Positions 2 to 54,893 of a stretch of 64,000 nt of DNA are shown piece after piece. The notes beneath the pieces were generated by a model. The model was not told where the DNA came from and ran no database searches. It saw nothing but the letters and a program-made list of their open reading frames with translations. The DNA is from Tubulanus polymorphus (lineage: Eukaryota; Nemertea; Palaeonemertea; Tubulaniformes; Tubulanidae), in contig NC_134036.1 in assembly GCF_964204645.1 (NCBI RefSeq), positions 9,286,704 to 9,350,703 on the forward strand, given 5' to 3'. The position numbers were made by a program, and so were the translations under genes. Within the stretch, counting starts at the first letter, position 1, and each line of letters opens with the position of its first letter.

Positions 2-1225
2 TTAACTAATTTAGAAATTTATGTTACTGAATCACAGTTTTTTATTTCTAAAATGGAAAATATATTTAATACATATGAAGTTACTTTTACTCGAGATGAA
101 TATAATATATATAAAGTAAAATCTAATATGAAATATTGGCAGAATCAATTAAATTTTGCTGTTTATTGTGCAACAACAGGATGTGGAATTAGTTGGAATG
201 ATCATTTAAATAACTTAGATAAAAATTTGAAGTATTCTGATTTAAAATTAATTCACACAATATTTAGATTTCACACATATTTTCAAATCAGAATAATATT
301 AAATGAATTAGAATGTCCTTTACCTGGGTCTAAATATTTTAAAGAATTGGATAATAATATTAATATATCCAAGTTTTATAAAATATGTAATGAATTTAAT
401 ATAAATATTAATTCCGATTTTAGAGCGCATGGTAAATTGCAAGGTGTCGGTGAACAGTATGAAATAAAAAGAATTGATTATATGCATAGAATTGGAGCTT
501 ATCATAATTATAAAATTGATAATAATAATGGTTGGGTTAATTTCATTTTAGAAAATGGTGAAGGTTTTACAAAATCAGGTATACAAAGAATAAATCAATC
601 TATTAGAATTTATTTGATATGTATTCTAGGCGCTCAAGTTGAAACAAGATCCCCAATAATTGGAAATGATAACACTTCATTCGATGCGCAGAAACAGTTT
701 AAAGTTTTATTTGAAGATTCAATTCATAATGATAAAAATAGATCGATTCCAGAAAACATTATAAGATATCAAAATTATTTAGATAAATCTCATGTAAGAC
801 TTAATTATTGTATAGGCCCTAATCTATTAATTATTTCTAATGATTTAGTATTGAAGATGGGAAATATAATTGGTTATAATAATCTAATTAAAACTGCAAC
901 AATAAATAATTCATTTGGATTAAATGATATAAATAAAAAGATTATTACTGCCCCAAAATTAATGGAAGGTGAAAAAAATAAAAAACATATTCAATCAACA
1001 GAAACTAAAACTAAGAATATTAAATTAAATAATGATTCCAAAATAAAAGATTACAATACATCAGAAAATGGTGCCGTACGGCACCCACACGGTGATAATA
1101 GAACTGATAAAATTCAACATGATATAATTAAACAAAATGATGATAATAAATCACATGAAAATACTAAATTAGCTATAACTTGTATAGGAATTGTAATCGG
1201 AGGAATATTATATTTTAAATTTTAA
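2..1225 (+). CDS. Penton-like minor capsid protein, 5' partial, with C-terminal membrane segment
   Basis: The frame is open from base 2, and the ATG at 53 is internal: the copy in element 2 begins about 220 codons earlier, with a start region (YRIFVDSRRLTNY) typical of Polinton penton proteins. In the family this single-jelly-roll protein caps the capsid vertices. The visible part is rich in Asn and Ile. Its last 70 residues are a hydrophilic, probably disordered linker followed by a hydrophobic tail (LAITCIGIVIGGILYF), which would anchor the protein in a membrane and is unexpected for a penton. A 27-bp palindromic insert lies in the linker (1070-1096). The next gene starts 17 nt after the stop. 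Penton identity is by family resemblance and position and is moderately sure. Confidence 0.75.
   Translation, partial: LTNLEIYVTESQFFISKMENIFNTYEVTFTRDEYNIYKVKSNMKYWQNQLNFAVYCATTGCGISWNDHLNNLDKNLKYSDLKLIHTIFRFHTYFQIRIILNELECPLPGSKYFKELDNNINISKFYKICNEFNININSDFRAHGKLQGVGEQYEIKRIDYMHRIGAYHNYKIDNNNGWVNFILENGEGFTKSGIQRINQSIRIYLICILGAQVETRSPIIGNDNTSFDAQKQFKVLFEDSIHNDKNRSIPENIIRYQNYLDKSHVRLNYCIGPNLLIISNDLVLKMGNIIGYNNLIKTATINNSFGLNDINKKIITAPKLMEGEKNKKHIQSTETKTKNIKLNNDSKIKDYNTSENGAVRHPHGDNRTDKIQHDIIKQNDDNKSHENTKLAITCIGIVIGGILYFKF
1070..1096 (+). repeat. 27-bp in-frame palindromic insert, copy 1 (penton gene)
   Basis: It begins with the perfect 16-nt palindrome GGTGCCGTACGGCACC and continues CACACGGTGAT. 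It reads G-A-V-R-H-P-H-G-D in frame. The matching place in element 2 (near 41700) lacks it. The same unit occurs at 4979-5005 and 7321-7347. Confidence 0.85.
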
Positions 1226-1241
1226 TTTTTTTATTATGTAA

Positions 1242-2915
1242 ATGGATGTAGAAGGTGGAGAAGATATTCCATTGGATCCTTTAGATGAACCTGGTATAAG
1301 TGATGAACAACAACCTGATTTTGATGAAACAAGTTTCAGTAATGATAATAAAACGGCATATAATACTAATTTAGGTGAAGATGATGATTATGATGATGAT
1401 CCCGAATTACGTGAAAAATTAAATAAATATTTAGAAGCTCCTGAAAGGGGTAGAATTTCAACTAGAACAGAAAGAAAAGAATTTATGAAACTATTAGTAA
1501 AACAACAAGAAAAATATCCTGATAAACCTATGGAATTATATAAAATGAAATCTAGAGTAACAGATACAATTGTTAACGAATTACTACCAATAGCTGTAAT
1601 AGATGAAATTGATACTGAAGATATTGTAGAACAAATTTTTAAAGATGACCCATATTTCACGAATAATTTAGAATTTAAAAATGATTCATGGTATTATAAT
1701 CTTGAATTAAATAGGAATACTGTATCAATTCAATTATCTAGAATGGGTCAAGAAAATATTTTTGAACCTGGAATGCGAGCATTATCTACAATTGAAGGTT
1801 CAAAAGGTGGTAGAGAATTTCTCAGAATTATATGGAATGCAATCGATAGAATAAATGAAAAAGAACCAATTCCTAATATTGATATAAACAAATATTCACC
1901 ATTTAAAAATCCAAATCCAAATCCTACTGATTTTGATCCAGAAATGGAAGAGAATAGAAATCGATTAGATAGATTAAGATCTTCAACACCCGAAACATCG
2001 AGAAGAGACACTCAACAAATTGATAATGATTCAAGTAAATTACAATTAGAAAAACAAATTGATAGATTAAGAGATTCAGAAGAAGAAATGAATAGTACTG
2101 GAATAAATCGACTGCAATATTTACTAGAAAAAGGATTATTTGATTTAACTGATGATGAATTAGAAGCATTTCCTGAACAAACACGTAGAGAAATTAAAGG
2201 TACGCAAGAATCAGCTGATAAAATTGCGCATGATAAAAGTATAAGAGATTTTAAAATTAGAACTTTAGAAAAAGAATTAACTGATAAAAATAAAGAAATA
2301 GAACAATTAAAATTAGATAGAGATAATAAAGTTATTGAAGAAATTGAATTTAAAAAAAGAAATGCATATTTAGAAAAAGAAATTGATGATTTAGAATATA
2401 ACATAGAATTACAAAAAGAAGAAATTAAATTATTATTAAAATCATATGATTATAATATTAATAGATTAAAAGTTATTTTTAAAGATTTGTTGATTAAACC
2501 AAATTCTGAAATATCATTAAAAGACAGAATAAAGTTATTATTTAAATTAGAAGGAATAACAATTCTTTCAATTCTAACAGCTGTAACTATGTTATTTACA
2601 ACAATTGGTTTAGCAATATCAAATGCTTTGAAATCTACTCCTACTCCAAATAAACCAGATAAACCTCCAGGCAATAATTCTATACAAGATAAAGTTAAAG
2701 ATGGTTTAAAGAAATTAGCAAAATATTTATGGGAACTATCAAAGAAATCTGCTGCAGCCTTACCAGGAGTTATTGCTTCAATTGTTGGTTTTATATTGAA
2801 ATCTGCAGGAAACATTATTAACTTTGCTGCTGAACATATTATTTTATTTTTAATTACAGTTGTAAGTGCTATTATTTTTGGTTTAGTAAATATGATATCA
2901 AAAAATATCAAGTAA
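1242..2915 (+). CDS. Coiled-coil protein with C-terminal hydrophobic segments, probable virion component
   Basis: I do not recognise a named family. The 557-aa product has an acidic N-terminus (first 60 residues) and charged helical sequence. A long heptad-like coiled coil rich in K/E/L/I spans about residues 265-410. Three hydrophobic stretches follow at about 436-461, 505-527 and 532-552, separated by a Pro/Lys linker. It lies between penton and major capsid genes, on the same strand with short spacers, so a structural or membrane-remodelling role in the particle is likely (inference). The element 2 copy (39894-41563) keeps the same plan but is frameshifted. The start is fixed by conservation with that copy and the A-rich leader before ATG. 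Confidence 0.8.
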   Translation: MDVEGGEDIPLDPLDEPGISDEQQPDFDETSFSNDNKTAYNTNLGEDDDYDDDPELREKLNKYLEAPERGRISTRTERKEFMKLLVKQQEKYPDKPMELYKMKSRVTDTIVNELLPIAVIDEIDTEDIVEQIFKDDPYFTNNLEFKNDSWYYNLELNRNTVSIQLSRMGQENIFEPGMRALSTIEGSKGGREFLRIIWNAIDRINEKEPIPNIDINKYSPFKNPNPNPTDFDPEMEENRNRLDRLRSSTPETSRRDTQQIDNDSSKLQLEKQIDRLRDSEEEMNSTGINRLQYLLEKGLFDLTDDELEAFPEQTRREIKGTQESADKIAHDKSIRDFKIRTLEKELTDKNKEIEQLKLDRDNKVIEEIEFKKRNAYLEKEIDDLEYNIELQKEEIKLLLKSYDYNINRLKVIFKDLLIKPNSEISLKDRIKLLFKLEGITILSILTAVTMLFTTIGLAISNALKSTPTPNKPDKPPGNNSIQDKVKDGLKKLAKYLWELSKKSAAALPGVIASIVGFILKSAGNIINFAAEHIILFLITVVSAIIFGLVNMISKNIK

Positions 2916-2945
2916 ACCATGATATCAAAAAATATCAAGTAAACC
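2892..2945 (+). repeat. Tandem 27-nt duplication over a stop codon
   Basis: The unit atgatatcaaaaaatatcaa plus gtaaacc occurs twice head to tail. The stop of the coiled-coil gene lies in the first unit. Element 2 has one copy, so the duplication is recent and lies just outside the coding sequence. Confidence 0.85.
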
Positions 2946-2984
2946 ATGATTAAAAATAAATAATTAATTTTTTTTGTTAAATAA

Positions 2985-4232
2985 ATGAGTGGGAGTTATA
3001 TAAGTCCTTCTAAGATTTCTAGAATATCTAATGCTATTAAAGCAGAAAGATCACATCATATAATTACTCATAACCCTTCAAATATTAATCCCGATGAAAC
3101 GTTATATGTTAGAATTCCTCGATTAACACAAAATACTTTTTATGTTCCAAATAGTATTTATTTATCAGCTGATATAAAAGTAATCGGTAATAATAATAAT
3201 TATGTCGTTGATAATGTTGGAAGATATTTGATTAAAAAGTTAACAATAAAGATTGGTCCGGAAACAGTTTTCTCATTAGATGATTATAATTTATTTATGC
3301 ATTATAAAGATTTATGGTTAACTAAAGAAAATAGAAATAATATGATATTTCAGGGTATTCAATCAGAAAACCAAAATAAATTAAGATCAGAAGCTAATAG
3401 CGCAATATTAACAAATGATGTAGATAAATTGATAAAAAGTATATATGGAAGTAAATATAAAATTCCATTAGATTTTGAATTGATAAATAATAATGCACCT
3501 TTATATAAATACGCAATTCAAGAAGATATTATATTTGAGATAACATTTGCTCCTGTAAATGAAATTGTATTATCTAGCGTTAATAAAGATATGAGTTATA
3601 AATTATCGAATATATGTTTAGAATATGATACAGTAACTGATGAAAATATTTCAAGTATAATTCAAATTCAATACAATCAAGGGTTTTCATTATTATATGA
3701 TTATATTGATAAATTTAAAACTGTAACTATTAATGCAAATGATGAAATAATTAATGAGAATATTAACTTCCCTAGAAGATCTATTAAAGGTATATTAATA
3801 TTTTTTACCATTGGAACGTATACTAATGGCGCAATAAATGTTGATAATTATTATAATCCTGAAATAACAAAAGTAGAAATAACTATCGAAGGAATAGCGA
3901 ATAAAATATTTTGTCAAGGAATGAGAATGATTGATCAATGGGTAGAAATTAAAAAACATTTTATGAATGAAAAAATAAAATCATTTGAAAATTGTAACAT
4001 TAATCAAATTGATTATTATACCGGTAATAAATATGCATTATGGTTAGATTTTAGAACAACTGAAGATAATTCATTACATGGTTCTGGAAAAAAATTACAA
4101 AATACAAAAGATGGAATACAATTATTCATGACAAAGAAAAAGGGAATCAAAAATTTTAAAATGCATATTTATATTTTATCTGACGCGCAATTAAATATTG
4201 TAAATTCACAATTAGATAGTGTTATGTATTAA
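2985..4232 (+). CDS. MCP: Major capsid protein, double jelly-roll
   Basis: The 415-aa product matches the Polinton/adintovirus major capsid family in length, gene position and N-terminal layout: a short basic arm, then beta-rich sequence with the family-like run RIPRLTQNTFYVPNSIYLSA. Double-jelly-roll proteins trimerise into the hexons of an icosahedral shell. No membrane segment or signal is visible. It sits between the coiled-coil gene (69-nt spacer) and the zinc-finger gene (32-nt spacer), and the ATG is preceded by a T-rich run and AAATAA. The frame is fully open, while the element 2 copy has a frameshift and a nonsense codon. Family assignment is from memory of the group and has not been searched. 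Confidence 0.85.
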   Translation: MSGSYISPSKISRISNAIKAERSHHIITHNPSNINPDETLYVRIPRLTQNTFYVPNSIYLSADIKVIGNNNNYVVDNVGRYLIKKLTIKIGPETVFSLDDYNLFMHYKDLWLTKENRNNMIFQGIQSENQNKLRSEANSAILTNDVDKLIKSIYGSKYKIPLDFELINNNAPLYKYAIQEDIIFEITFAPVNEIVLSSVNKDMSYKLSNICLEYDTVTDENISSIIQIQYNQGFSLLYDYIDKFKTVTINANDEIINENINFPRRSIKGILIFFTIGTYTNGAINVDNYYNPEITKVEITIEGIANKIFCQGMRMIDQWVEIKKHFMNEKIKSFENCNINQIDYYTGNKYALWLDFRTTEDNSLHGSGKKLQNTKDGIQLFMTKKKGIKNFKMHIYILSDAQLNIVNSQLDSVMY

Positions 4233-4264
4233 AATTTTAACTTTAATAAAAATGTATATAATAA

Positions 4265-5254
4265 ATGGAAGGAGGTAAAGTATATAAACATATTCCATAC
4301 ATCGATACACATGAAAATAATGATGGTTTATATTATGTAATACCTTGTAATATAGCATTGATATTTGATCCTATTTTTAAAAATTATAAAACTAAACTGA
4401 TAGAAATCGATAATAATAAAAGTGGTGTTGTTGATAATTTAAGTAATGTAATACCTACTACACCTATAATACCTACTACTACACCTGTAATACCTACTAC
4501 TACATCTGTAATACCTACTACTACATCTGTAATACCTACTACATCTGTAATACCTTCTACATCTAATAACGTAATACCTTCTACACCTGTAATACCTTCT
4601 ACATCTAATAATGTAATACCTTCTACATCTAATAATGCAATAATATTAAATGTTAGTGAAAATAGAAATTATTGTGGTTATTGTAATGGTGAATTTTCAA
4701 ACGCTCCATCAAATTGGAATAAACATATGAATACAAATTCACATATTACTAATGTTATAGAACGTGTTGGCAAAAAAGAATTTATAGAACACCCATTTAG
4801 ATATGTTACAAAATTTGTTTCAAATAAAAAAGTAAATGGTAAAGAATTATATAAAGATTTATTATTAGCAACACCTAATAACGATGAATTAGATTTAACC
4901 GATGCTAATGAAATATTAGGATCAAACACTGTAAATGAAATATTAGGAGCAAACACTAATAAAGATAATAATGAAAATGGTGCCATACAGCACCCACAAA
5001 GTGATATAGTTACAGATAAACATATTGATAATAAATATTCTATGAAACATGAAGAAGAAACTATTGATGATATAATAGAAAGGATGAATAAGCATAACAA
5101 TGAAACAACTATTGATGATTTGGTAAAAAAGGTGAAAAAGGTGGAAAAAAATTATAAAGATGTTGATGTAGATTCGGTAGAGCAGTTAAATATGTTGTTA
5201 GGGTCGTCTGATAGTGAAAGTGATTCAGAAATTAATTATCTAACACTCGAATAA
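4265..5254 (+). CDS. Zinc-finger protein with VIPTT repeat
   Basis: The 329-aa product starts with about 55 conserved residues (MEGGKVYKHIPYID). A tandem low-complexity block of V-I-P-T-T/S units follows at about 60-125. One C2H2-type finger (YCGYCNGEF, with H-x5-H) lies near 138-162, and a hydrophilic acidic tail ends in SDSESDSEI. The third copy of the 27-bp insert lies at 4979-5005. The element 2 counterpart shares start and position but has a different repeat (IETKIED) and three fingers. Element 3 keeps only the tail. Function is unknown. Fingers of this form suggest nucleic-acid binding, and the position next to MCP suggests a late gene. Confidence 0.75.
   Translation: MEGGKVYKHIPYIDTHENNDGLYYVIPCNIALIFDPIFKNYKTKLIEIDNNKSGVVDNLSNVIPTTPIIPTTTPVIPTTTSVIPTTTSVIPTTSVIPSTSNNVIPSTPVIPSTSNNVIPSTSNNAIILNVSENRNYCGYCNGEFSNAPSNWNKHMNTNSHITNVIERVGKKEFIEHPFRYVTKFVSNKKVNGKELYKDLLLATPNNDELDLTDANEILGSNTVNEILGANTNKDNNENGAIQHPQSDIVTDKHIDNKYSMKHEEETIDDIIERMNKHNNETTIDDLVKKVKKVEKNYKDVDVDSVEQLNMLLGSSDSESDSEINYLTLE
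4979..5005 (+). repeat. 27-bp in-frame palindromic insert, copy 2 (zinc-finger gene)
   Basis: GGTGCCATACAGCACC plus CACAAAGTGAT, reading G-A-I-Q-H-P-Q-S-D. The palindrome carries paired changes (CGTACG to CATACAG). Element 3 has the same flanks (GAAAAT then ATAGTTACAGAT) joined without the insert, near 54700. Confidence 0.85.
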
Positions 5255-5393
5255 TAAAGGTTGAAAATTATATAAAATAATAGTAAATAAAAAAAGGTTT
5301 TAATTATTTAAGGTATCTAATAGGGTATCAGGTATTAGGGCATCTAATGGGGTATTAGGTATTAAGGTATCTAATACATAGGTATACAAATAG
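5255..5393. repeat. Convergent intergenic minisatellite
   Basis: A/T-rich spacer between the two convergent gene groups, with degenerate direct repeats around GGTATCTAATAGGGTATCAGGTATTAG. It probably holds transcription ends for both sides (inference). Elements 2 and 3 have other tandem repeats at the same place. Confidence 0.6.
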
Positions 5394-6008
5394 TTATTTT
5401 ATAAATTTATATTCATATGGAAATTGTAATCTCATAAGTAATTTGGAACCTTTATTATTCTTTAATTTATTCATATATTCATCATGTAATTCAGTAGGTA
5501 TAATTTGATTTTCTTCTAATGATTGTTGCATAGATTTTTTATCTTTGTTATAAAATAAAACTAGAAATCTTATATTCTCTCTAAAATCTTTCACAATTGA
5601 ATTATATTTTTGATTTAAAACCCATGTTGTTATCCCAAAATGTCTACCAGAGAAAGCTAAATAACATAACTCACTTTCTCTAACTTTTGAATCATGTAAA
5701 TTTGCGCAATCATCAATAATAAATAATGTATTAGATCCTTTATAAATATCTATTGCAATTTTTATACAATTATCTAAATTATCTTTCACTGTTTTAGAAT
5801 TTAATATAATAAACTTTTTATCTTTAAAAACTATATCTCTATTATACGTTTCATTCATTTCATAAGTAGGACAGAATAATATTATATTATCAAAATGATT
5901 CTTATAAATAGTTTCTAACAAGTCTAATATGAAGTGTGTTTTACCACAATTTGTAACTCCAGTAACTAACATATTATGTGGTTCAAATATAAATAAATCT
6001 TTATTCAT
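5394..6008 (-). CDS. Genome-packaging ATPase, FtsK/HerA (A32-like)
   Basis: The 204-aa protein has Walker A near residues 16-23 (GVTNCGKT), Walker B near 94-98 (LFIIDDCA) and a later Asn (TTWVLNQK) where these ATPases keep a sensor. In Polintons and nucleocytoplasmic viruses this enzyme hydrolyses ATP to pump DNA into the procapsid. Size fits the short Polinton form. Its ATG overlaps the end of the integrase gene by 8 nt (ATGAATAA), and all three elements keep this overlap. Element 3 has an intact copy and element 2 a copy with one nonsense codon. Conservation here is the highest of any gene in the family. Confidence 0.92.
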   Translation of the reverse strand: MNKDLFIFEPHNMLVTGVTNCGKTHFILDLLETIYKNHFDNIILFCPTYEMNETYNRDIVFKDKKFIILNSKTVKDNLDNCIKIAIDIYKGSNTLFIIDDCANLHDSKVRESELCYLAFSGRHFGITTWVLNQKYNSIVKDFRENIRFLVLFYNKDKKSMQQSLEENQIIPTELHDEYMNKLKNNKGSKLLMRLQFPYEYKFIK

Positions 6009-7086
6009 TTATTCTTTTAATTTTACTAGATAAAATCCATTCATTGAATTTATCATCATATCCTTTATATTTCACCAAAGAATACTTTTTTCCTTTAAGA
6101 GTTTTAGTTTTTAATACTTTTTCTATTTTGTATTCTATTTCATCTGGATTTGGTACAAGTGATAATTCTTGTTCATAGAAATAACCTAATATTTCTTCAT
6201 CTTTTAGATCTTCTAATTTATAAACAAATGGTTTAGTTAATATTATCTTTTTAATTTTAAATATTTCTTCAGTAAAATTAGGGGTATAACCTTTATAAAA
6301 TGTTTTTCTATATTTAGAAATTCTAACGTGTTGTCCTATTTTAAATTTAGGTTCTCCAAAATCATGTGTAACAAACGCACCATATAAATTATTCCAAACT
6401 ATTTCTGAATTTTCTTCTTTTCTAGCTTGTATAGGTTTCATATTTATAGAACTATGTTTAGAATTATTATAACCTTTAACTAAATCATCTAACACATCGA
6501 TATATTTATATGTTTCATTAGCGGTGAAATATTTCCACATTCTAGTTTTCAATGTTTTATTAAATCTTTCTATAACGGATGCTTTTTTATCTGAATGTGT
6601 TGAAAAATATTCTACATCGTTATCAGATAATAGTTTTTTGAAATGTTTGTTATAAAATTCTTTACCTTCATCAAATTGTATTTTATCTGGGATAGCTTCT
6701 TTAAATATTAATTTGAAAGAATTTGTAACTTCTATACCAGTTTTATTTTTAATCGGGATACTCCATGCGTATCTACTGAATATATCTATAACATTTAGTA
6801 TCCAAAAATATCCTTTGTTATATTCTTCTAAGTTTTTCATGTCAATTAAATCAGCTTGCCATTGTTGGTCAATATATGAAACCATTACTTTTCTTGTTAA
6901 ATATTTTTTATCCATCTTTTTATGAATTTGATATGTGGGTTGATTTTGTAACCATGATTTTAATTCACTATATTTTATTTTTTCTTTATCAGATTTAATT
7001 TTATCCCATAATTCTGAAACGTTAGAATATGATACTTCACGTTCTGGGTTGTAATATAAATCTCTCAAATATTGTTCTTTTTTCAT
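6001..7086 (-). CDS. INT: Retroviral-type integrase with C-terminal chromodomain
   Basis: A 361-aa DDE integrase. An N-terminal helical region (1-60) precedes the rve core. Catalytic residues are D79 (WQADLIDM), D139 (IQFDEGKEF) and E173 (SVIERFNKTLK). A small SH3-like stretch follows near 235-290, and a chromodomain lies at about 312-358 (VLKTKTLKGKKYSLVKYKGY, W near 350). It inserts element DNA with a short target duplication. The chromodomain may steer insertion to marked chromatin (known for related integrases, not shown here). It is followed after an 8-nt overlap by the ATPase. The frame is intact here, broken in element 2, and reduced to the tail in element 3. Confidence 0.93.
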   Translation of the reverse strand: MKKEQYLRDLYYNPEREVSYSNVSELWDKIKSDKEKIKYSELKSWLQNQPTYQIHKKMDKKYLTRKVMVSYIDQQWQADLIDMKNLEEYNKGYFWILNVIDIFSRYAWSIPIKNKTGIEVTNSFKLIFKEAIPDKIQFDEGKEFYNKHFKKLLSDNDVEYFSTHSDKKASVIERFNKTLKTRMWKYFTANETYKYIDVLDDLVKGYNNSKHSSINMKPIQARKEENSEIVWNNLYGAFVTHDFGEPKFKIGQHVRISKYRKTFYKGYTPNFTEEIFKIKKIILTKPFVYKLEDLKDEEILGYFYEQELSLVPNPDEIEYKIEKVLKTKTLKGKKYSLVKYKGYDDKFNEWILSSKIKRINE

Positions 7087-7092
7087 CTTATT

Positions 7093-7488
7093 TTAATCCA
7101 TTAATAATAATCTTGGTTTATTTTCAATGACTTTATCATTTGACTTATTTTCTGGTATGATAGGTTTATTGTCATTGGAATCATCTTTATCATCAGATTT
7201 GAATTTTGATTTATATATTACACCAGATAATATAATAACTGTTACTAATCCAATTGTAATATATAATTTATAATTACTTCCAGCATTAGAAGAATTAGAT
7301 GGATTATTATTTGAATCAATACCACCGTGTGGGTGCCGTACGGCACCATCAGATAATTTCTGTGATTCATTTATATCAGTTAATTTCTTTTTCTTAGCTT
7401 TTTTTAATTCTGATGATCTTTTACCTAATTCTCTTGCCCATTTAATTTGTTTCTCGGATCTAGCCTTTTTCTTAACTCCATCACTCAT
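7093..7488 (-). CDS. Small one-pass membrane protein
   Basis: The 131-aa product has a strongly basic N-terminus (KKKARSEKQIKWAREL and a KKAKKKK run), a Ser/Asn linker, one transmembrane segment near 78-97 (LYITIGLVTVIILSGVIY) and a charged tail. No signal peptide is seen. A 27-bp palindromic insert sits in the linker and is absent from the element 2 copy. It overlaps the upstream gene by 8 nt (ATGAGTGA), as in element 2. Role unknown. With two other membrane-segment proteins in the element, a membrane step in particle formation is possible (inference). Confidence 0.75.
   Translation of the reverse strand: MSDGVKKKARSEKQIKWARELGKRSSELKKAKKKKLTDINESQKLSDGAVRHPHGGIDSNNNPSNSSNAGSNYKLYITIGLVTVIILSGVIYKSKFKSDDKDDSNDNKPIIPENKSNDKVIENKPRLLLMD
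7321..7347 (-). repeat. 27-bp in-frame palindromic insert, copy 3 (membrane protein gene)
   Basis: Read on -, GGTGCCGTACGGCACC plus CACACGGTGGT, encoding G-A-V-R-H-P-H-G-G. In element 2 the flanks TCTGAT and ATTGAT are directly joined (near 35075), so the insert is exactly nine codons. Confidence 0.88.
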
Positions 7489-8083
7489 TTATTTTAGTTA
7501 ATTTTTGTTCTGATTCATTTTCTGTTTCGACGTTTGGTTGTAGTACATCTGTTTCGTTCTTACCTGATTTATATTCCATAGGTTTGATGTTCGAAAATGT
7601 TATGACGCCAGTAGAAATCAATGTCATAACCGATCCTAATTGAAATGAAGCATAACCGACCCATTTTTGTAATTCAGTCATAACTAAGTAGTCATTTTTC
7701 AAATCATTATATAATTTATTTTCATCATCAATTGGTATTAACTGGTTACATAATTTTGAATAACATTTGACAATACCATTCGAAATAGAATCATTTATTT
7801 TAGATAATCTTGCCTCTTCATAAATCTTAAAATATTTTATTACTTTTTCTTTATTCATATTATCTAATTCTTGAAAAGTTGTTGTTTTACCAATAAACTC
7901 TTTAGTTTTTCCACTCGCAATCAATAGTTCTAGATGATGCTTACAATATAAATAGTATTCATAATCTATATTGTTATTAACTTGAATAGAATTAGAAACA
8001 ACTGTATCCTTATTATCACTAATACCTAAATCATCTAATGTTTTTTCAATATCAATACTATTCTTATTAGATTTCTTTGACAT
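7481..8083 (-). CDS. Conserved element protein of unknown function, 200 aa
   Basis: Not recognised. It has a hydrophilic Lys/Asn/Asp-rich N-terminus, a helical middle (about 40-130) with several Cys (YCKHHLELL; VKCYSKLCNQL), and a moderately hydrophobic stretch near 145-165 (ASFQLGSVMTLISTGVITF) that could be membrane-inserted. No catalytic motif of a protease or nuclease is visible. It is conserved in element 2 (34343-34944, broken) with the same neighbours and the same 8-nt overlap with the membrane gene, so it belongs to the element's core set. Confidence 0.7.
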   Translation of the reverse strand: MSKKSNKNSIDIEKTLDDLGISDNKDTVVSNSIQVNNNIDYEYYLYCKHHLELLIASGKTKEFIGKTTTFQELDNMNKEKVIKYFKIYEEARLSKINDSISNGIVKCYSKLCNQLIPIDDENKLYNDLKNDYLVMTELQKWVGYASFQLGSVMTLISTGVITFSNIKPMEYKSGKNETDVLQPNVETENESEQKLTKINE

Positions 8084-8331: not shown

Positions 8332-8994
8332 TTAACCACTCATTAAAGACTCAACGTATTGTTCATTATGTGTTGAATTCCATAATTCAATAAATTTTTT
8401 TACTTTTTCCAGTTGATTCAAATATAACTGTAAATCTATTCTATTAGATTTGATTTGATTTTCTTTCTTTTCTAAGGTCTTAAATTTTTCCAATTCCAAA
8501 TAAGTTTTTTATTGTATTCATCGTTCCTTTTTAAATTTAGATATTGGTAACACGTGATCAATATGAAAGTATTCACCGTAATTATCTATATTCATTTTAT
8601 CATCGAATTGAAATATAATCCATGATTTGAGAAATTCATCTGAACAACCCAATAAATTAGATAGTGTTTCTGAATATGTTTCTTTGTTAAATAATTGTGT
8701 TAATCTAGACCGTAAACATTGTTTCAATCTAAAATTAAGATCTGTTTGATATCTTTCTCTCATATATTCTGTCATATAATCATTATAAGATTCTCTATTA
8801 TCTTCTCGATATTGTTTGGTATATAGTTTAATGCAAGTTTTACAGTAATATTGAAAACCATCTTTGCTAATCTTACGCTTACTAAATTCTGTTAATGATT
8901 TATCTAATTCACATTTAGAACATTTCTTGTAACATATATTTATAACACCAGTGTTATTTGTAATATTGATAGTTTGTGGTTGTTCTGGTTCCAT
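8332..8994 (-). pseudogene. HNH endonuclease, frameshifted
   Basis: The N-terminal zinc-binding part (KKCSKCELDKSLTEFSKR then YYCKTCIKLY) and the nuclease core (YFHIDHVLPISKF) mark a CxxC-CxxC HNH nuclease like those found as free-standing or homing enzymes in phages and giant viruses. Compared with element 2 there is a one-base gain just after LPISKF that leads to a stop, and a one-base loss about 45 nt later restores the frame into the conserved C-terminus (FIELWNSTHNEQYVES). The product would stop at 158 aa, after the HNH core but without the tail. It is the only broken gene seen in element 1. Confidence 0.85.
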
Positions 8995-9076: not shown

Positions 9077-9130
9077 TCCTAGCTGCTTTTGATAAGTTTT
9101 TTCGATTCCTTGATATATAAATAATACAAG

Positions 9131-9440
9131 CGGCCGGCCATTTATGGCCGGTTTTGCTTAATGCGCATGCGTTAAACATAATTATAAATTCATTCTATAA
9201 ATTCTGTAAAATAGAAACAACACATGCGTTACATGCGGCCATTTATGGCCGGTTTTGCTTAATGCGTATGCGTTAAACATAATTATAAATTCATTCTATA
9301 AATTCTGTAAAATAGAAACAACTGAATATAGAAAATTCAAACGCATTCATGTTCTCGTCACATACGTTACATGTGTCAAATGCGTCACATGCGGCCATTG
9401 ATGGCCGGTTTTGCTTAATTCGCATGTGTTAAACATAATA
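9131..9440. repeat. Subterminal direct repeats, each with a GGCCAT hairpin (3 copies)
   Basis: Hairpins at 9134-9151, 9235-9252 and 9391-9408 (GGCCATTTATGGCC or GGCCATTGATGGCC). Each is followed by GGTTTTGCTTAATGCGCATGCG and an A/T-rich stretch ending TAAAATAGAAACAAC. Element 2 has the same unit with different stem bases (32925-33235). The position between terminal repeat and first gene suits an origin, packaging signal or promoter (inference). Confidence 0.8.
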
Positions 9441-32924: not shown

Positions 32925-33235
32925 TGTAAATATAATTATGATTAGCGCATGCGCATTGATCAAAAGCGCGCACGAATGCGCGGTTTGCTCAGTGGTATGA
33001 TTTAGATATTCCATGTCGGTTGTTTCTAATTACATAATGAATATATAATTAGGATTAACGCATGCGCATTAAGCAAAAGCGCGCATGAATGCGCGGTTTG
33101 CCTAATGCGAACACGTTTAGATATTTCATGTCGGTTGTTTCTATTTACATAATTATATATTCATTATGTAAATATAATTATGATTAACGCATGCGCATTG
33201 ATCAAAAGCGCGCATGAATGCGCGGTTTGCTCAGT
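32925..33235. repeat. Subterminal direct repeats, each with a CGCGCAT hairpin (3 copies)
   Basis: Hairpins near 32966-32982, 33079-33095 and 33209-33225 (CGCGCATGAATGCGCG type), each preceded by ACGCATGCGCATT(A/G)A(G/T)CAAAAG and by GGTTGTTTCTA-containing A/T sequence. They are homologous to 9131-9440 but with other stem bases. Confidence 0.8.
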
Positions 33236-33368: not shown

Positions 33369-34041
33369 ATGGAACCAGAACAACCACAAATTATCAATAT
33401 TACAAATAACACGTGTTATAAATATATATTACAAGAAGTGTTCTAAGTGTGAATTAGATAAATCATTAACAGAATTTAGTAAGCGTAAGATTAGCAAAGA
33501 TGGTCTTCAATATTGCTGTAAAACTTGCACTAAACTATATACTAAACAATATCGAGAAGATAATATAGAACATTATAATTATTATATGGCAGAATATATG
33601 AGAGAAAGATATCAAACAGATCTTAATTTTAGATTGAAACAATGCTTAAGATCTAGATTAACACAATTATTCAACAAAGAAACACATTAAGAAACATTAT
33701 CTAATTTATTGGGTTGTTCAGATGAATTTCTCAAATCATGGATTATATTTCAATTCGATGATAAAATGAATATAGATAATTATGGGGATTATTACCATAT
33801 TGATCATACGTTACCGATTTCTAAATTTAACATGAATGATGAATACAATAAAAAACTTATTTGGAATTGGAAGAATTTAAGACCTTTAGAAAAGAAGGAA
33901 AACATAATTAAATCTTATAAACTAGATTTACAGTTATATTTAGAACAGTTAACAAAGGCAAAGAAATTTATTGAATTATGGAATAATGATCCAAATAATG
34001 AACAATACGTTGAGGAATTTGATATCAAGGATCCGAAATGA
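33369..34041 (+). pseudogene. HNH endonuclease, broken
   Basis: Same protein as at 8332-8994. A small deletion near 33412 shifts the frame before the CxxC pair (KKCSKCELDKS), and a nonsense codon stands at about 33688 (TCA to TAA type). The nuclease core YYHIDHTLPISKF and the C-terminal tail are intact and show the undisturbed sequence where element 1 is frameshifted. Confidence 0.85.
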
Positions 34042-34342
34042 CTTATCTGGACAGTTATAATTACTGCTCCTAATAGATAAACAAAAGTAGTGAGATATCA
34101 AATAGATTTTAAATAAAAAGTATTTAAAAAACAATAACTTCAACTAGCTTGTGAATTCTATTATATTTTTAATATTTTCTTTTCAAAAAAGAATACTTTA
34201 TATCACAAATAAAAAATACTAAAAAAACAATAACTAATACTAAAATTCTTTACCTTTAACTAAGCTAGTATTAATCTAAAGAGATACTGGTATCATTTGA
34301 AGAATACTTAAAATATTTTTTTTGCTTTTTTCTCTAATATAT

Positions 34343-34944: not shown

Positions 34945-35304
34945 TGGCGTAAGAAAAAGCCTAGATCCGAGAAACAAATTAAATGGGCAAGAGAATTAGG
35001 TAAAAGATCTTCAGAATTAAAAAAAGCTAAGAAAAAGAAATTAACTGATATAAATGAATCACAGACTTTATCTGATATTGATACGAATGATAATCCATCT
35101 AATTCTTCTAATGCTGGAAGTAATTATAAATTATATATTACAATTGGATTAGTAACAGTTATTATATTATCCGGTGTAATATATAAATCAAAATTCAAAT
35201 CTGATGATAAAGATGATTCCAATGACAATAAACCTATCATACCAGAAAATAAGTCAAATCATAAAGCCATTGAAACTAAATCTAAGTTATTATTAATGGA
35301 TTAA
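34937..35304 (+). pseudogene. Copy of the small membrane protein, frameshifted near start
   Basis: A two-base loss within the first 12 codons removes the frame. The rest, including the membrane segment (LYITIGLVTVIILSGVIY), is preserved. It lacks the 27-bp insert found in element 1. Confidence 0.82.
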
Positions 35305-35310
35305 AATAAG

Positions 35311-36408
35311 ATGAAAAAAGAAAAATATTTAAGAGATTTATATTATAACCCAGAGAGTGAAGTATCATATTCTAACGTTTCAGAATTATGGAATAAAATT
35401 AAATCTGATAATGGTGGTATAACATATAGTGAATTAAAATCATGGTTACAAAATCAACCAACATATCAAATACACAAGAAAATGGATAAAACTTATTTAA
35501 CAAGAAAAGTTATGGTTTCATATATTGATCAACAATGGCAAGCAGATTTAATTGACATGAAGAACTTAGAAGAATACAACAAAGGATATTTCTGGATATT
35601 AAATGTTATAGACATATTCAGTAGATACGCATGGTCAATTCCAATCAAAAATAAAACTGGAATAGAAGTAACAAATGCTTTTAAATCAATATTTAAAGAA
35701 GCTATTCCAGATAAGATACAATTTGATGAAGGTAAGGAATTTTATAACAAACATTTCAAAAAACTATTATCTGATAACGATGTAGATTATTTTTCAACAC
35801 ACTCAGATAAAAAAGCATCTATTATAGAAAGATTTAATAAAACATTGAAAACTAGAATGTGGAAATATTTTACTGCTAATGAAACATATAAATATATCGA
35901 TGAGTCTATAAATATATTAGATGATTTAGTGAAAGGTTATAATAATTCTAAAAATAGTTCTATAAATATGAAACCTATACAAGCTAGACAAGATGATAAT
36001 TGAGAAATAGTACGGAATAATTTATATGGAGCGTTTGTTACACATGATTTCGGTGAACCTAGATTTAAAATTGGACAACATGTTAGAATATCTAAATATA
36101 GAAAAACCTTTTATAAAGGTTATACCCCAAATTTTACAGAAGAAATATTCAAGATTAAAAAGATAATATTAACTTAACCTTTTGTTTATAAATTAGAAGA
36201 TCTAAAAGATGAAGAAATATTAGGTTATTTCTATGAACAAGAATTATCACTTGTACCAAATCCAGATGAAATAGAATACAAAATAGAAAAAGTATTGAAA
36301 ACAAAAACTCTTAAAGGAAAAAAGTATTCTTTGGTGAAATATAAAGGATATGATGATAAATTTAATGAATGGATTTTATCTAGTAAAATTAAAAGAATAA
36401 ATGAATAA
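35311..36408 (+). pseudogene. Integrase with chromodomain, two nonsense codons
   Basis: Catalytic D, D and E regions are intact (WQADLIDM, IQFDEGKEF, SIIERFNKTLK). Stops at about 36001 (after RQDDN) and 36176 (in ILT*PF) cut off the chromodomain (KYKGYDDKFNEW). Two extra residues (ESIN) lie in the middle relative to element 1. The end overlaps the ATPase start by 8 nt. Confidence 0.9.
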
Positions 36409-41579: not shown

Positions 41580-43342
41580 TTAAATCTTAAAATATAATAT
41601 TCCTCCGATTACAATTCCTATACAAGTTATAGCTAATTTAGTATTTTCATGGGATTTATTATCATCATTTAGTTTAATTATATCATGTTGAATAATATCA
41701 GTTTTTATATCTTCTGATGTATTATAATCTTTTATTTTAGAATCATTATTTAATTTAATATTATTAGTTTTAGTTTCAGTTGATTGAATATGTTTTTTAT
41801 TTTTTTCACCTTCCATTAATTTTGGAGCAGTGATAATCTTTTTATTTATATCATTTAATCCAAATGAATTATTTATTGTTGCAGTTTTAATTAGATTATT
41901 ATAACCAATTATGTTTCCCATCTTTAATACTAAATCATTAGAAATAATAAATAGATTAGGGCCTATACAATAATTTAATCTAATATGTGATTTATCTAAA
42001 TAATTTTGATATCTTACAATGTTTTCTGGAATCGATCTATTTTTATCATTATGAATTGAATCTTCAAATAATACTTTAAACTATTTCTGCGCATCGAATG
42101 AAGTGTTATAATTTCCAATTATTGGGGATCTTTTTTCAACTTGCGCACCTAAAATACATATCAAATAAGTTCTAATAGATTGATTTATTCTTTGTATACC
42201 TGATTTTGTAAAACCTTCACCATTTTCTAAAATGAAATTAACCCAACCATTATTATTATCAATTTTATAATTATGATAAGCTGAAATTCTATGCATATAA
42301 TCAATTCTTTTTATTTCAAACTCTTCACTTTATAAAACTTAGATAGATTAATATTATTATCCAATTCTTTAAAATATTTAGACCCGGGTAAAGGACATTC
42401 TAATTCATTTAATATTATTCTGATTTGAAAATATGTGTGAAATCTAAATATTGTGTGAATTAATTTTAAATCAGAATACTTCAAATTTTTATCTAAGTTA
42501 TTTAAATGATCATTCCAACTTATTCCACATCCTGTTGTTGCACAATAAACAGCAAAATCTAATTGGTTCTGCCAATATTTCATATTAGATTTTACTTTAT
42601 ATATATGATATTCATCTCGAGTAAAAGTAACTTCATATGTATTAAATACATTTTCCATTTTAGAAATAAAAAACTGTGATTCAGTGACATAAATTTCTAA
42701 ATTAGTTAATGAATTTAAAACTACATTTCTATATGTAATATTTTTCTTAAAATCTATTGCAGGAATATTATATTTAATTGATTTATTATATTGGAAAGCT
42801 TTAGTTGCTTCGAATGTTTTTGTAGGATCGATTAAATTGCAATAAATATAAAAATGTGTGTGAGGTATTAAGTTTGGTGTAACAGCATCAATATTTGTAA
42901 AAGATCTATCTGGAAGAATTCCTAACAGTTTAGCTATAGGTTTTTTTACCATAAATTTATGTTTTTCACTATTAGACAACCTTATCTTTATTCTATCAGA
43001 ACTCTCACTTTTTAAAAATCTAATACTAAACCCAGAACTACTACCTAATTTGTGCCAGGCTTTTCTATTAATTTCTTGTGCCAATGTATCTAAATTATAT
43101 AACCCTGGCTTTAAATATATATAGACCCATTCATTTTTGTTTTTATTAAAAATTAAAAAAGCTCTTTGTTCAATAGTTTTATTCGATATACTGTAAAATG
43201 AGTTACATAAACTTATATTTACTAATTTTAAATCTACACAATTTTTATATTCCCTATCTAATTGAACTAGTAAATTATGAGATTTATAATTTGTAAGTCT
43301 TCTAGAATCTACAAATATTCTGTATTCTTTTAATTCTACCAT
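41580..43342 (-). pseudogene. Penton-like minor capsid protein, broken
   Basis: Gives the N-terminus missing in element 1: YRIFVDSRRLTNYKSHNLLV and VDLKLVNISLCNSFYSI, the usual opening of Polinton pentons. A deletion of about 75 nt with frame loss near 42311 and a nonsense codon near 42080 break it. The hydrophobic C-terminal anchor is kept. It has no 27-bp insert. Confidence 0.82.
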
Positions 43343-43359
43343 TTATTTTACATATTTTC

Positions 43360-43719
43360 TTATTCGAAATCTATTTCATGGTGCCCCTCTTGGTGCCCAT
43401 TCTTACCTTTGTATACGAAATAGAAATCTCCAGAACATAATTCTTCTAAATCTTCACTTGATAATCTATGAAATCTATCAGGTAAATATGTTCTGAATTT
43501 ATATGTATTTCCTTTTAATCCTTCATATTCTAAGTGTATAACTAATTTATCTCCATAGTTATTAGTAACTGTATCAATATTTGTAATTAGATATTTCTTA
43601 TCAATTGTTAATTCTGTTAACTTTTTGAGTTTATAATCTACAGATTTTACATTTGTTATATGTTTAATTCTATCTAGAAATAATTTGTTGTTCTCACTGT
43701 GTGCTTGTTTACTCTCCAT
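43360..43719 (-). CDS. Small OB-fold-like (SSB-like) protein
   Basis: 119 aa, intact. The pattern YLITNIDTVTNNYGDKLVIH then FRTYLPDRFHRLS resembles small proteins found next to PolB in many Polintons, which look like OB-fold single-strand DNA binders. That role is inferred. It lies between PolB (29-nt gap) and penton (17-nt gap). The only long gene in element 2 without a break. Confidence 0.6.
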   Translation of the reverse strand: MESKQAHSENNKLFLDRIKHITNVKSVDYKLKKLTELTIDKKYLITNIDTVTNNYGDKLVIHLEYEGLKGNTYKFRTYLPDRFHRLSSEDLEELCSGDFYFVYKGKNGHQEGHHEIDFE

Positions 43720-43748: not shown

Positions 43749-46700
43749 TTAACACGTTAGAATTCTTTTCATTATCTCGTTCTCTTTTGTTTCTTCTCTT
43801 TTAAATTTTAAGTATTCATCTAAATTGCAACCATAAGCAACTGTATGAATTCCATCATCTAAAATATATCTTTTATCATCAAATGGGTTTAGACTTATCT
43901 TTTCAATTTCTTCAATAAACATTTCATGATCTTCAGATCTTAAACATCTCATCTTATGTTTTCTAACTTCTTCTTTGAATATACAATTGATGTAATCTTT
44001 GAAATGAATATTCTTTTCTACTACACTTTTGGTTATTCCTTTTAACTTTTTAGCTTCATGTTCTTTAGTTTTATATGAATACATTTTAGATCTAATACCA
44101 ATGAATTCAATCATTTCTTCACCACCTAATTCATCTTTGAATTTACCGGGAACTTTTTTATTATCATTGCTAAACAATTCATGATCTTTAGGATAATTAC
44201 TAAAATCAAAATGATGTTTTAATGTTTTTAAATCATCAGTTATGTTATCAGTTTTTATCTTTAATATGTAAGAATCGGTATCAAAATATAATATTTCTAT
44301 ATGTTTTTCTCCAAAATGAGGTTGTAATACGTTATAATAGAATTCATACATTAGTAATTTTGATAATTCTAAAACTGAAGCGCCAACATAGATTGGTTTA
44401 TTAAATTTCATTGATGTTCTTCTCATCTTAACTGCGGCTAAATTTTCATCAAATATTCTGTTTCCAATGAACTTAGGATATGTTTGTAAATGTCTAATTC
44501 TTTTACCATTACTGACTAACTCAATATCATTTCTATTTCTAATATTTTCACAAGTCTTACCATAGAATGCATTATTCATTAACTTGAAGAAATCTTTTTT
44601 CGAAATCAGTTTTAGCTTTAGTTCTCTGTTTGGTGTTAAAATCTATATATTTTTCTAACCACTTAGATTGACTAAATGAAATATATCTATGTACTTTTTT
44701 TAGGATCATTCCTTGATTCAAATAAAACTTTAACATTCTATAATGTACTACATAATTATATTTATCTTCTTGAGTTACCATTAACTTTTCTGTATGAATA
44801 TGATTTTCGGGTTTAATTCTTTTTTGGTAATTTGATAATTCTTCATGAGTTACAGTTTTATGTTCGGGACAGTATGCTAGATTTCTAGATTTAAATCCAA
44901 ATACTCCATAAGGTTGTGGTTCCATCATTGCCCAACCATAAAGATTATTTGCATCTATATATAATAACTTATATCCGGGGTTATCATTTACATTGAAATA
45001 TCTATCCCCTAATACACCTGAAACTCCTCCTCTTATAGATTTTTCAAATAATAATAATTGATCTATATTTGTTAACAAATCCATTTTTATATTTGTAAAT
45101 TTTAATCCACAATCCCATGTTAAACCTGGTGATGAATAACAATGACAAGGATCAATATTGAAATATTTTAGGTTTACATCTCTAAACCTTTCGAATATAT
45201 CGGTTAATAATAATACATCTGATTTTAAATATATATCTACTAATTGTCCATGATTTTCTATTTTGAAATGATTCCAAATATTCAATGTTCTATTATAGAC
45301 TTCATCTTTAACATATTCATTTTTTAATTCATCATAGAATTGTTCTTTCAATAATTCAGTTATATTGAAATCATTATGATTCTTATAAAATGAATATGGA
45401 ATTGCTCCTTTATATCTCATTAATTTAAAATCATCATTATTTGGGTAATGTTGTTTTAATATCTTTAATTCATCATCAACTAATGATTTTGGTAAGTTAT
45501 CTAATGAACTATTTAAAAATCTATATGAATCTATAAATCTTTAACACCCAAATTGGAATGATATATAATTCTCAGATGTTTTAGCTAACATTCTAAATTT
45601 ATAAGTTGGTATTTTATCTTTTGATCTATTTGAATTTAATATTTCTATTTCATTATTGATTTTTTCTATTTTATGGCATAACTGTTTGATGAATAAATGT
45701 GCATCATATCCTGATAGATTATGAAATATAACTGGTACAAAGTTAATTTTCTTAGCTTGTAAGTTACAATTTTCATGTGCAGCACCTCTAAACTTTCCAT
45801 TCAAATGATCATGGTCTCTTACTTTTTTATCTTTATAATTAAATATCTTTTCACAATAATAACATTTACCTGCAAACACAAATTCTTCTTTAAATTCTTC
45901 TGTCATTATAATTTCTATATTTGTATTCAATAATTTACTAAATCTTATTTCATATTCAATTAATAAGTCACAAAAATCATTGATAACATTTTCATTTCTG
46001 TAATGATAATATTCACTTTCAATTAGTTCTGGATAATCAGATTTTATATATAACCCGAAAGCAGCAGCTGATTGATGAATCTTTTTAATTGTATTTGTTT
46101 TTGGTGGTTCATCTGAAAAATCATTTTCATTAGAATTTAATTTCTTTCTTTTATAATATATTTCTTTTCTATCTTGATCAGTTAGTTCTTTATTTAATGA
46201 TTCAAAATCTCCATATATTACAAATGGTACTTTATTTTTGTAATCATAGTTTTTGAATTCTAATATTTTATACTTTTCATTTGGTAAAACTAATTTACAA
46301 TAATCATGATTTTCACATAATTGTTTATGATTTAATAATGTACTTTCATTACTGAATTTATGTAAACATTTTCTACTAAGATATATTTTATGGTGATCAT
46401 TTTCTGATTTAAAAAATAAATCTATTTGTTTAATCCACATACAATGATTCTCATGATATAATATATCTATAACATCATTTGAATCATAATCTTTTGATAG
46501 ATATAAAGGTTCTAATGTATAATGTTTTATATTGTTACCTTTTGTATTTGGTAATTTGATTAAATCAAATACATTTATTCTTAAATTATTATCTCTTTCT
46601 ATCTTTGGGACGTTTTTAATTCTAACAGGATACTTATCTATCTTATAATTATTTTCAAATGGTTTATAATGAGTTAATCTACAAATATTATAAGTTGCAG

Positions 46701-47652
46701 GATGTAAACAACTTATTATAGTCCATAGTAAACATTTATCATCAAAATTTTGTACATTTATTACAGCATAAGTTTTAAATGGTAGTTTAATATAACTTGT
46801 TCCATTTATACTATCATCTTTATAATATGATAAATTATTTTCATCAATTGGTTTTGATTTAGTTAACTTATTATATTTTGTGTTATAAACATGTAAAGTC
46901 ATAAATATTATTTCATCAAATATTAAACCAGATCCTTCAAAATATTTCTCTTCTATTTTAGTTTTTACTTCATTAGAACATTTATCTAATTTATGATCTA
47001 TATGTTGTTTAGATATAATATGTTGTGAATGAGAATTTATATTATATATTGGTTTATCTTCAGATTTTATGAATTTAACTTTTGATGAAATACTTATTTT
47101 AGGATATTCAACATCAGTTATTATTTTTATTATTTCTTTCATATTTTCTAAATGTTTTTTATTTTCTTCTAATGTTTTTCCTTTATGAAATTTAAACTCA
47201 ATAGCTGCTGGGCCAATATCACTTTTAAATGCTTCGGTTATCTCTATATCTTTTTTATTATCTAATGAATTAATATAATTTCTTATATCTTCCATGTATG
47301 GTCTTTTATTGTTTAATCTATTTTTTATGCTTTTAATTGTCTTCTGTTTCTTATCGTTATCATTATCAAAATAATCTTCACCTAAAATATCATTATTCTT
47401 ATTTCTAATATGACTTATAGATTTTAAATGTTCTTTATAATATCTTTTATCACTGAATGATTGATTACATGCATCACATTTATATGTTTCTTTTTCATTC
47501 TTTAATTCTTCTAATTTAGTTTCTAATATATCATCTTTATATTCTAGTTTCAATTTATTCTCTAAATGTGTATTAGTTTTATTGTGTCTTGCTTTTTGGG
47601 ATTTATCTATATTGATATTACATGATGGACAGTAGTACTTATTTGCTTCCAT
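43749..47652 (-). pseudogene. PolB: Protein-primed family B DNA polymerase, two breaks, no intein
   Basis: About 1300 codons. Two N-terminal zinc fingers (YYCPSCN..; YKCDACNQSF..), exonuclease motif FVIYGDFESL, an endonuclease-VII-like zinc element (KVRDHDHLNGKFRGAAHENC) followed by HNLSGYDAHL, motif A YIDANNLYGWAM, motif B NNAFYGKTCEN and motif C YFDTDSYI. It replicates the element from protein-primed ends. A TAA at 45541 and an extra A in an A-run near 44595 break it. Motif C is uninterrupted, unlike element 3. The gene start lies within the terminal repeat. Confidence 0.93.
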
Positions 47653-54496: not shown

Positions 54497-54893
54497 TTAA
54501 TCACTTTCACTATCATACCCTAACATTTTTTTCAAATTCTCTACCGAATTTTCTTCTTCAAATTCTTTATTATTTTTATACTTATTCTTCACCCTTTTTA
54601 TCGCATCATCAATAGTTGTTTCACTGTTATGCTTATTCATCCAATCAAATTTATCACTATTTTCTACTTTATGTTTCATAGAATCTTTAATATCAATATC
54701 TGTAACTATATTTTCATTATCATCTTTATTAGTGTTTGCTCCTAATATTTCATTTACAATGTTTGATCCTAATATTTTATTAGCATCGGTTAAATCTAAT
54801 TCATCTTTATTAGGTGTTGCTAATAATAAATCTTCATATAATTCTTTACCGTTTACTTTTTTATTTGAAACAAACTTTGTAACATATTTAAAT
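54497..54893 (-). pseudogene. Zinc-finger protein C-terminal remnant
   Basis: Counterpart of the last 40% of 4265-5254 (VTKFVSNKKVNGKELYEDLL to the acidic SESD end). It has no start and no finger. It shows the site of the 27-bp insert in its empty form. Its 5' side is fused by deletion to PolB. Confidence 0.85.

Follow-up and report, generated by a model that had tools for sequence, protein, structure and literature searches.

A GC-rich palindromic 25-bp unit, probably a non-autonomous mini-element, in frame in genes of AT-rich Polintons of Tubulanus polymorphus

The locus considered here raises the question of why several genes of one mobile element should carry the same short palindrome, each time in the same reading frame. 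It lies in a stretch of 64,000 nucleotides, hereafter the window, from the nemertean Tubulanus polymorphus (GCF_964204645.1, contig NC_134036.1, positions 9,286,704 to 9,350,703 of the forward strand; contig C12 in our numbering), in which three elements, numbered 1 to 3, were compared. An earlier note, made from the sequence alone, had described a palindromic unit of 27 bp at three places in element 1, read in the sense frame GA(V/I)(R/Q)HP(H/Q)xx. Both observations hold at all three places (the frames are GAVRHPHGD, GAIQHPQSD and GAVRHPHGG), with the refinement that the core conserved genome-wide is 25 bp long, GGTGCCGTACGGCACCCACACGGTG, and that a duplicated AT brings the added sequence to 27 bp; in the window, the last two of the 27 bp first described read either AT or GT. 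The first 16 bp of the unit form a perfect palindrome, 18 of its 25 bases are G or C vs. approximately 24% GC in the surrounding DNA, and it is able to form a hairpin of 6 pairs. We consider the unit to be, probably, a non-autonomous, GC-rich, palindromic mini-element of AT-rich Polintons, whose mode of movement we infer.

Within the window, the 16-mer of the unit is exact at 1070-1085 and 7332-7347 and has 2 mismatches at 4979-4994 (4 over the full 25-mer), and dinucleotide shuffles give an expectation of 0.02 matches. The genome search suggested in the earlier note, carried out on the 268-Mb assembly, yielded 143 exact 16-mers and 509 25-mers with at most 3 mismatches, 70 of them exact, with 0 matches for the reversed controls of both the 16-mer and the mismatch-tolerant search; together with the shuffle expectation, these counts rule out a chance origin. 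The flanks of 172 units were read, i.e., of 171 of the 509 and of the window copy with 4 mismatches, in an order which followed mismatch-sorted lists, so that young copies are over-represented among them. All 172 were assigned by their flanks to nine sites of Polinton-type elements, with none left over: A1 (56), A2 (11), A3 (1), B (28), C (58), D (10), E (4), F (2) and G (2). Eight of these sites are coding and lie in five genes, namely A1, A2 and A3 in gene A, B and G in the gene of a small membrane-like protein (gene B), C in the integrase, and E and F in genes E and F, whereas D lies between genes. The spread through several genes, which had been likened to the behaviour of Rickettsia palindromic elements, is thereby borne out. 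A tenth site, D2, is also intergenic and holds a variant unit with a longer loop in two loci (L077 and L149). The units read are located on contigs of 11-32 Mb, apart from one (L101) on a 156-kb contig.

Filled and empty forms were compared at six sites: A1, B, D and F in the window, where element 2 is empty at the first three and element 3 at F, and C and D2 in other copies (empty C, AGCAATATAAAA, in L045, L076 and L093; empty D2 in L085). At sites A1, B and F the filled and empty forms differ by 27 bp, in agreement with the clean empty sites and nine added codons described before. In the filled form, a left flank ending in RAT is followed by the unit, by a second AT (replaced by GT at B) and by the right flank, i.e., 25 + 2 bp are added, or 27 + 2 bp at D2. 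The target duplication sought in these alignments is seen as a second AT at A1, D, F, G and most C copies, and is imperfect at B, A2, A3 and E. The targets of A1 in L156 and of D2 are an AT followed by a non-AT dinucleotide, which speaks for an AT that is duplicated and against ATAT as a fixed target. The base before the unit is T in 172 of 172 units, a degenerate pattern for units after any other base found 0 matches in the genome, and 8 matches lack a T at position +2 after the unit.

By comparison with relatives, the unit is best described as a derived mobile mini-element and not as an ancestral one, because A1 is without an insert in the five closest relatives of gene A, and the peptide is missing from the listed relatives of two host genes. 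The gene A relatives P0121-P0125 (63-67% identity) run from (S/N/Y)EN straight to I(K/T)TD without an insert at A1. GAVRHPHGD, within three substitutions, is absent from 240 listed relatives of gene A and the integrase (120 of 2096; 120 of 351); the 120 listed integrase relatives include nearest ones that span site C without it, and 8 relatives of gene E lack it as well. A cellular or viral source of the unit was also sought and gained no support: the 16-mer matched 5 stretches in viral contigs, all in unlike sequence, the degenerate 25-mer had 0 matches there, the exact 25-mer had 0 matches in 84,980 bacterial and archaeal genomes (a one-per-species collection), and no relative of the integrase was found in the viral contigs.

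How the copies came to occupy these sites is a separate matter, and here one rival deserves the most attention. It holds that ectopic gene conversion, or template switching at microhomologies while the Polinton replicates, carried a single old insertion from gene to gene, and that transposition as such played no part. The short common flanks GAAAAT-unit-ATATA at A1, C and F speak for it, as do haplotypes at B and C which are found both filled and empty, and a copy (L158) in which one unit lies between A1-left and A2-right flanks. However, the likeness of flanks between sites extends over only a few bases, the flanks of D, E and G differ, and a second AT stands at several sites, and we regard this explanation as rather unlikely as the whole account. 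Exchange and loss are suggested on other grounds too: gene A carries two units in five copies (L033, L036, L043, L092 and L124), one copy is rearranged (L118), and taken together with L158 and with the GGTGGT that element 2 has at site C, these suggest that units are lost and recombined. At site B, three upstream haplotypes each occur filled and empty and every filled copy has GT, a pattern that fits a single insertion which may later have been exchanged between copies. A tree of 49 integrase fragments, nearly all chosen for carrying the unit and one (L111) on a very long branch, shows site C changing 2 times and site B once, and little is drawn from it. Site E is shortened or altered in most copies compared, and a 25-base form in L028 and L089 agrees with the unit at 18 of 25 positions; therefore, the insertion at E may predate all the others or, with lower probability, E may be where the unit came from.

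The constancy of the reading frame bears on a second rival, in which GAVRHPHGD is a functional peptide, e.g., a binding or cleavage motif, kept and spread in linkers by selection. The unit is read in the sense frame G-A-V-R-H-P-H-G at 8 of 8 coding sites, although 5 of the 6 possible insert frames are stop-free and only 1 makes a stop, and the 162 units read inside genes all run in the gene-sense direction in this one frame. Among the first 151 units read, 143 were in genes, and in 136 of these the frame stays open over 10 or more codons ahead of the unit and 20 or more behind it; 2 of the 7 that lack it do so because site G is near the start codon, and none of the 8 D units read at that stage has the open frame. 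For the null expectation, possible targets were counted in nine genes of element 1, which puts the chance of the observed frame at 0.26 if every AT is a target, at 0.36 if RAT is, and at 0.48 if RAT is taken within the linkers as we bounded them, and the probability of 8 out of 8 at 2e-5, 3e-4 and 3e-3, respectively. When A2 and A3, which are possibly non-independent, are dropped, the values become 2e-3 (RAT) and 1e-2 (RAT in linkers). The frame bias is thus probably real but in part a by-product of the positions of RAT, because insertion follows RAT and RAT is here often an in-frame Asn or Asp codon; the residues around the insertions are rich in N, D, K and S by eye.

The peptide itself shows no visible purifying selection. 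Distinct coding changes in the unit are synonymous in 12 of 39 cases vs. 11.5 expected, the variants R to W and G to D are common, and CpG positions account for 22 of 43 changes (D included). In addition, the DNA is nearly letter-identical across genes, which would be needless for a peptide, D and D2 are noncoding, and the motif is absent from the 248 relatives read, so that a selected peptide module is improbable. Because no such selection is seen on the peptide and two sites are noncoding, the unit is a mini-element of DNA that is tolerated when in frame, and not a peptide module. The description of a peptide-coding mini-repeat therefore survives in one half, that of a palindrome mobile in genes, and is not supported in the other, since 2 of 10 sites are intergenic, purifying selection is not seen and RAT accounts for part of the frame. 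Insertions out of frame or in noncoding DNA, which would speak against such a repeat if they were equally common, do so only in part: out-of-frame ones occur at 0 of 8 coding sites and noncoding ones at 2 of 10 sites.

Less probable still is an origin from a larger transposon, of which the unit would be one end (either a 3′ hairpin of Helitron type, which enters between A and T, or a REP or MITE relic) and whose enzyme would move it. Helitrons have a 3′ end made of a palindrome with a short tail, ending in CTRR. The palindrome and 9-base tail of the unit recall such ends, and if the added sequence is read as 27 bp placed between an A and a T, no duplication need be assumed; however, the tail lacks the CTRR end, and the right half of the unit, which has 168 matches, lies in complete units in 99 of the 100 matches listed and inside the rearranged copy L118 in the remaining one. 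A larger element with this end was not seen among these 100 of the 168 matches; a MITE would share its terminal inverted repeats with an autonomous element. Finally, an ancestral unit lost in elements 2 and 3 is very improbable: losses do seem to occur, as at site C in element 2, which has GGTGGT yet groups among filled copies, and at the shortened site E, but the listed relatives of genes A, C and E are without the unit, in line with the earlier assumption that elements 2 and 3 are not losses, and the empty A1, B, D and F have a single AT and no remnant.

For the mini-element reading that we prefer, the following course may be proposed. New insertions would be rare and would take place at the DNA level, when a hairpin-forming copy is joined to a break whose ends are staggered by 2 bases at AT. 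The majority of copies would then arise by amplification of the Polinton, and gene conversion would carry filled sites between element copies. Selection would purge the insertions that break genes, leaving survivors in flexible linkers in the frame G-A-V-R-H-P-H-G-D. Proteins of the endonuclease VII family cut branched DNA, and the element-2 protein with such a domain could cut a cruciform and start the repair that copies the unit; for the acting enzyme, our first candidate, though a tentative one, is an endonuclease VII/HNH protein that the Polinton encodes and that would cut the cruciform. It is doubtful whether one may go further and regard the unit as an actively moving, Polinton-dependent hyperparasite, which enters after RAT with a 2-base AT duplication by means of such a nuclease, and whose target preference tends to give in-frame placement in Asn/Asp-rich linkers and so spares the carrier. 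Such a hyperparasite would be the smallest protein-coding mobile element known to us.

Several observations weigh against a mobile mini-element that enters with an AT duplication. First, the duplication is imperfect: the 28 units at B all have GT, 6 of the 11 at A2 have TT or AC, those at E and A3 have AA instead of AT, and 14 of the 58 at C are non-AT. The flanks of L084 (empty C) and L010 (filled C) are almost identical over approximately 150 bases, so that the two differ by the insert at C, which in itself favours a mini-element, but the pair departs from a pure AT duplication in that T-unit-AC replaces one A; thus, conversion or later mutation must be added to explain this pair. Second, the scored integrase copies are mostly empty at C, 8 of 113 having a frame longer by 9 residues, in a list which favours copies resembling the empty query. 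Third, the folding energy of the unit is unexceptional (z -0.7 to -1.6) and many shuffles fold as strongly, so that the hairpin is only plausible, and an autonomous partner for the unit was not found. Fourth, the units read are 171 of 509 and are skewed to young copies. Fifth, of the 10 copies with a D unit, 5 have it in the direction of gene E, 3 (L077, L081 and L085) have the next gene found on the opposite strand, and 2 lie in stretches too short to tell; because of these mixed strands, there is no general strand rule outside genes. Of the strand and frame bias to be tested, then, the shared frame is due in part to RAT, a residual frame bias remains (p from 2e-5 to 1e-2, depending on the null and on the independence assumed), and there is no strand rule beyond the genes.

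The features of the window are collected in Table 1. Judged from its genes, i.e., an integrase, an A32-type ATPase and a B-family polymerase, the carrier is classed as a Polinton; a capsid protein was not identified. The Pfam matches are PF00665 (rve integrase, 6.7e-9) and PF04665 (A32-like ATPase, 2.1e-12) in element 1 and PF03175 (B-family DNA polymerase, 6e-10) in element 2.

Table 1. Units, host genes, empty sites and a candidate nuclease in the window
Feature	Position	Strand	Remarks
Unit, site A1	1070..1094	+	Exact; duplicated dinucleotide AT at 1095-1096
Unit, site F	4979..5003	+	4 mismatches; duplicated AT at 5004-5005
Unit, site B	7323..7347	-	Exact; 7321-7322 is sense GT instead of AT
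Gene A, no Pfam match	53..1225	+	Holds filled A1; A2 and A3 filled in other copies
Gene F, weak sub-threshold match to a C2H2 zinc finger	4265..5254	+	Holds site F
Gene B, small protein, membrane-like stretch by eye	7093..7488	-	Holds site B; N-terminal site G filled in L130/L131
Integrase (rve; chromo match just below cut-off)	6001..7086	-	Site C at ~6977-6979, empty here
Gene E	7481..8083	-	Site E in shortened form here; near-exact unit in L098 and L101
Empty site A1, element 2	41709..41710	-	Single AT in GAAGATATAAAAAC
Empty site B, element 2	35075..35076	+	Single AT in TCTGATATTGAT
Empty site F, element 3	54710..54711	-	Single AT in GAAAATATAG
Empty intergenic site D, element 2	34095..34096	+	GAGATATCAAAT
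GGTGGT at site C, element 2	35413..35418	+	Residue expected if a deletion joined the GGTG ends of the unit; deletion presumed
Element-2 protein with endonuclease VII domain, candidate branched-DNA nuclease	45544..47652	-	703 aa; zinc-finger match sub-threshold

Some further observations concern the surroundings of these features. Upstream of site D, a conserved intergenic block of approximately 70 bp (TCCGAAATGACTTATCTGGACAGT...ACTGCTCC...) is found in different contexts (34024-34096; L010, L077, L081, L082, L085, L087, L089, L095, L146 and L149), and CAGT/ACTG of most copies is changed to CAAT/ATTG in L077, L085 and L149, as expected of a paired stem. Searched against Rfam, the window has no family that reaches the gathering score and this block has no match in six loci, with one sub-threshold match in those six D-site loci. 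At 8518-8994, element 1 encodes a small protein that has paired CxxC motifs and ends in an HNH-like segment, and gene F contains short tandem repeats encoding VIPTTTS/VIPSTSNN at 4438-4640, both by eye. GC-rich, repeated short inverted sequences (GGCCATTTATGGCC; GCGCATGCGCATTGATCAAAAGCGCGC) lie outside the outermost genes of elements 1 and 2 (9124-9262 and 32945-33216), and a GC-rich intergenic island with two direct GGTGCCC copies lies in element 2 (43373-43410). The integrase search gave 2068 first-look candidates on contigs C1-C12 and some small ones, 113 of which were scored at 95-100% identity; these candidates are a large, young Polinton population, and the places listed avoid the ends of most large contigs by eye.

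Palindromic mini-repeats that spread through genes are known from bacteria and organelles, and their mobility there is not settled. In the open-licence PMC literature, no report of a palindromic mini-element in Polintons was found among the matches listed, judged from their titles and abstract openings, nor any mention of the 16-mer sequence. With hundreds of copies, pairs of filled and empty forms and ten target sites in one genome, the preference, duplication, loss and conversion of such insertions become measurable here, and the unit suggests how genes of virus-like elements may gain codons and yet stay intact.

Several known systems resemble the unit in part. Retrotransposons nested in Polinton-like viruses, of approximately 4-9.5 kb, also parasitise a Polinton relative in coding and intergenic places, whereas they disrupt genes when inside them and the unit is 25 bp long and in frame (PMC12220804). 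The repetitive hairpin elements of sponge and placozoan mitochondria are likewise scattered and hairpin-forming, but they are organellar, as the unit is not, and largely intergenic, and the unit stem GGTGCC/GGCACC does not fit the placozoan family GGVBCC-N3-GGVBCC (PMC2800124, PMC7813641). Rickettsia palindromic elements, with ten families in the genome reviewed, resemble the unit as palindromic repeats lying in frame in unrelated genes and giving a recurring peptide, here at 8 sites in 5 genes; they are bacterial and approximately 150 bp long, whereas the unit is 25 bp, of one family, and in a eukaryotic mobile element (PMC10969869). Yeast mitochondrial GC clusters (GC42 and others) share with the unit a short, GC-rich, palindromic and non-autonomous form in AT-rich DNA, sporadic presence, footprints and mergers, and a short direct repeat at the flanks, as in a 2-3 bp target-site duplication, and the mechanism of their mobility is not settled (PMC4478555). 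In contrast to these clusters, the unit is 25 bp long, lies in Polintons on chromosome-size contigs, has an AT repeat and is mostly coding, and the two are likened by anatomy, with no relation of sequence claimed. The nearest systems are the yeast mitochondrial GC clusters in anatomy and the Rickettsia palindromic elements in behaviour, and we file the unit as a member of neither.

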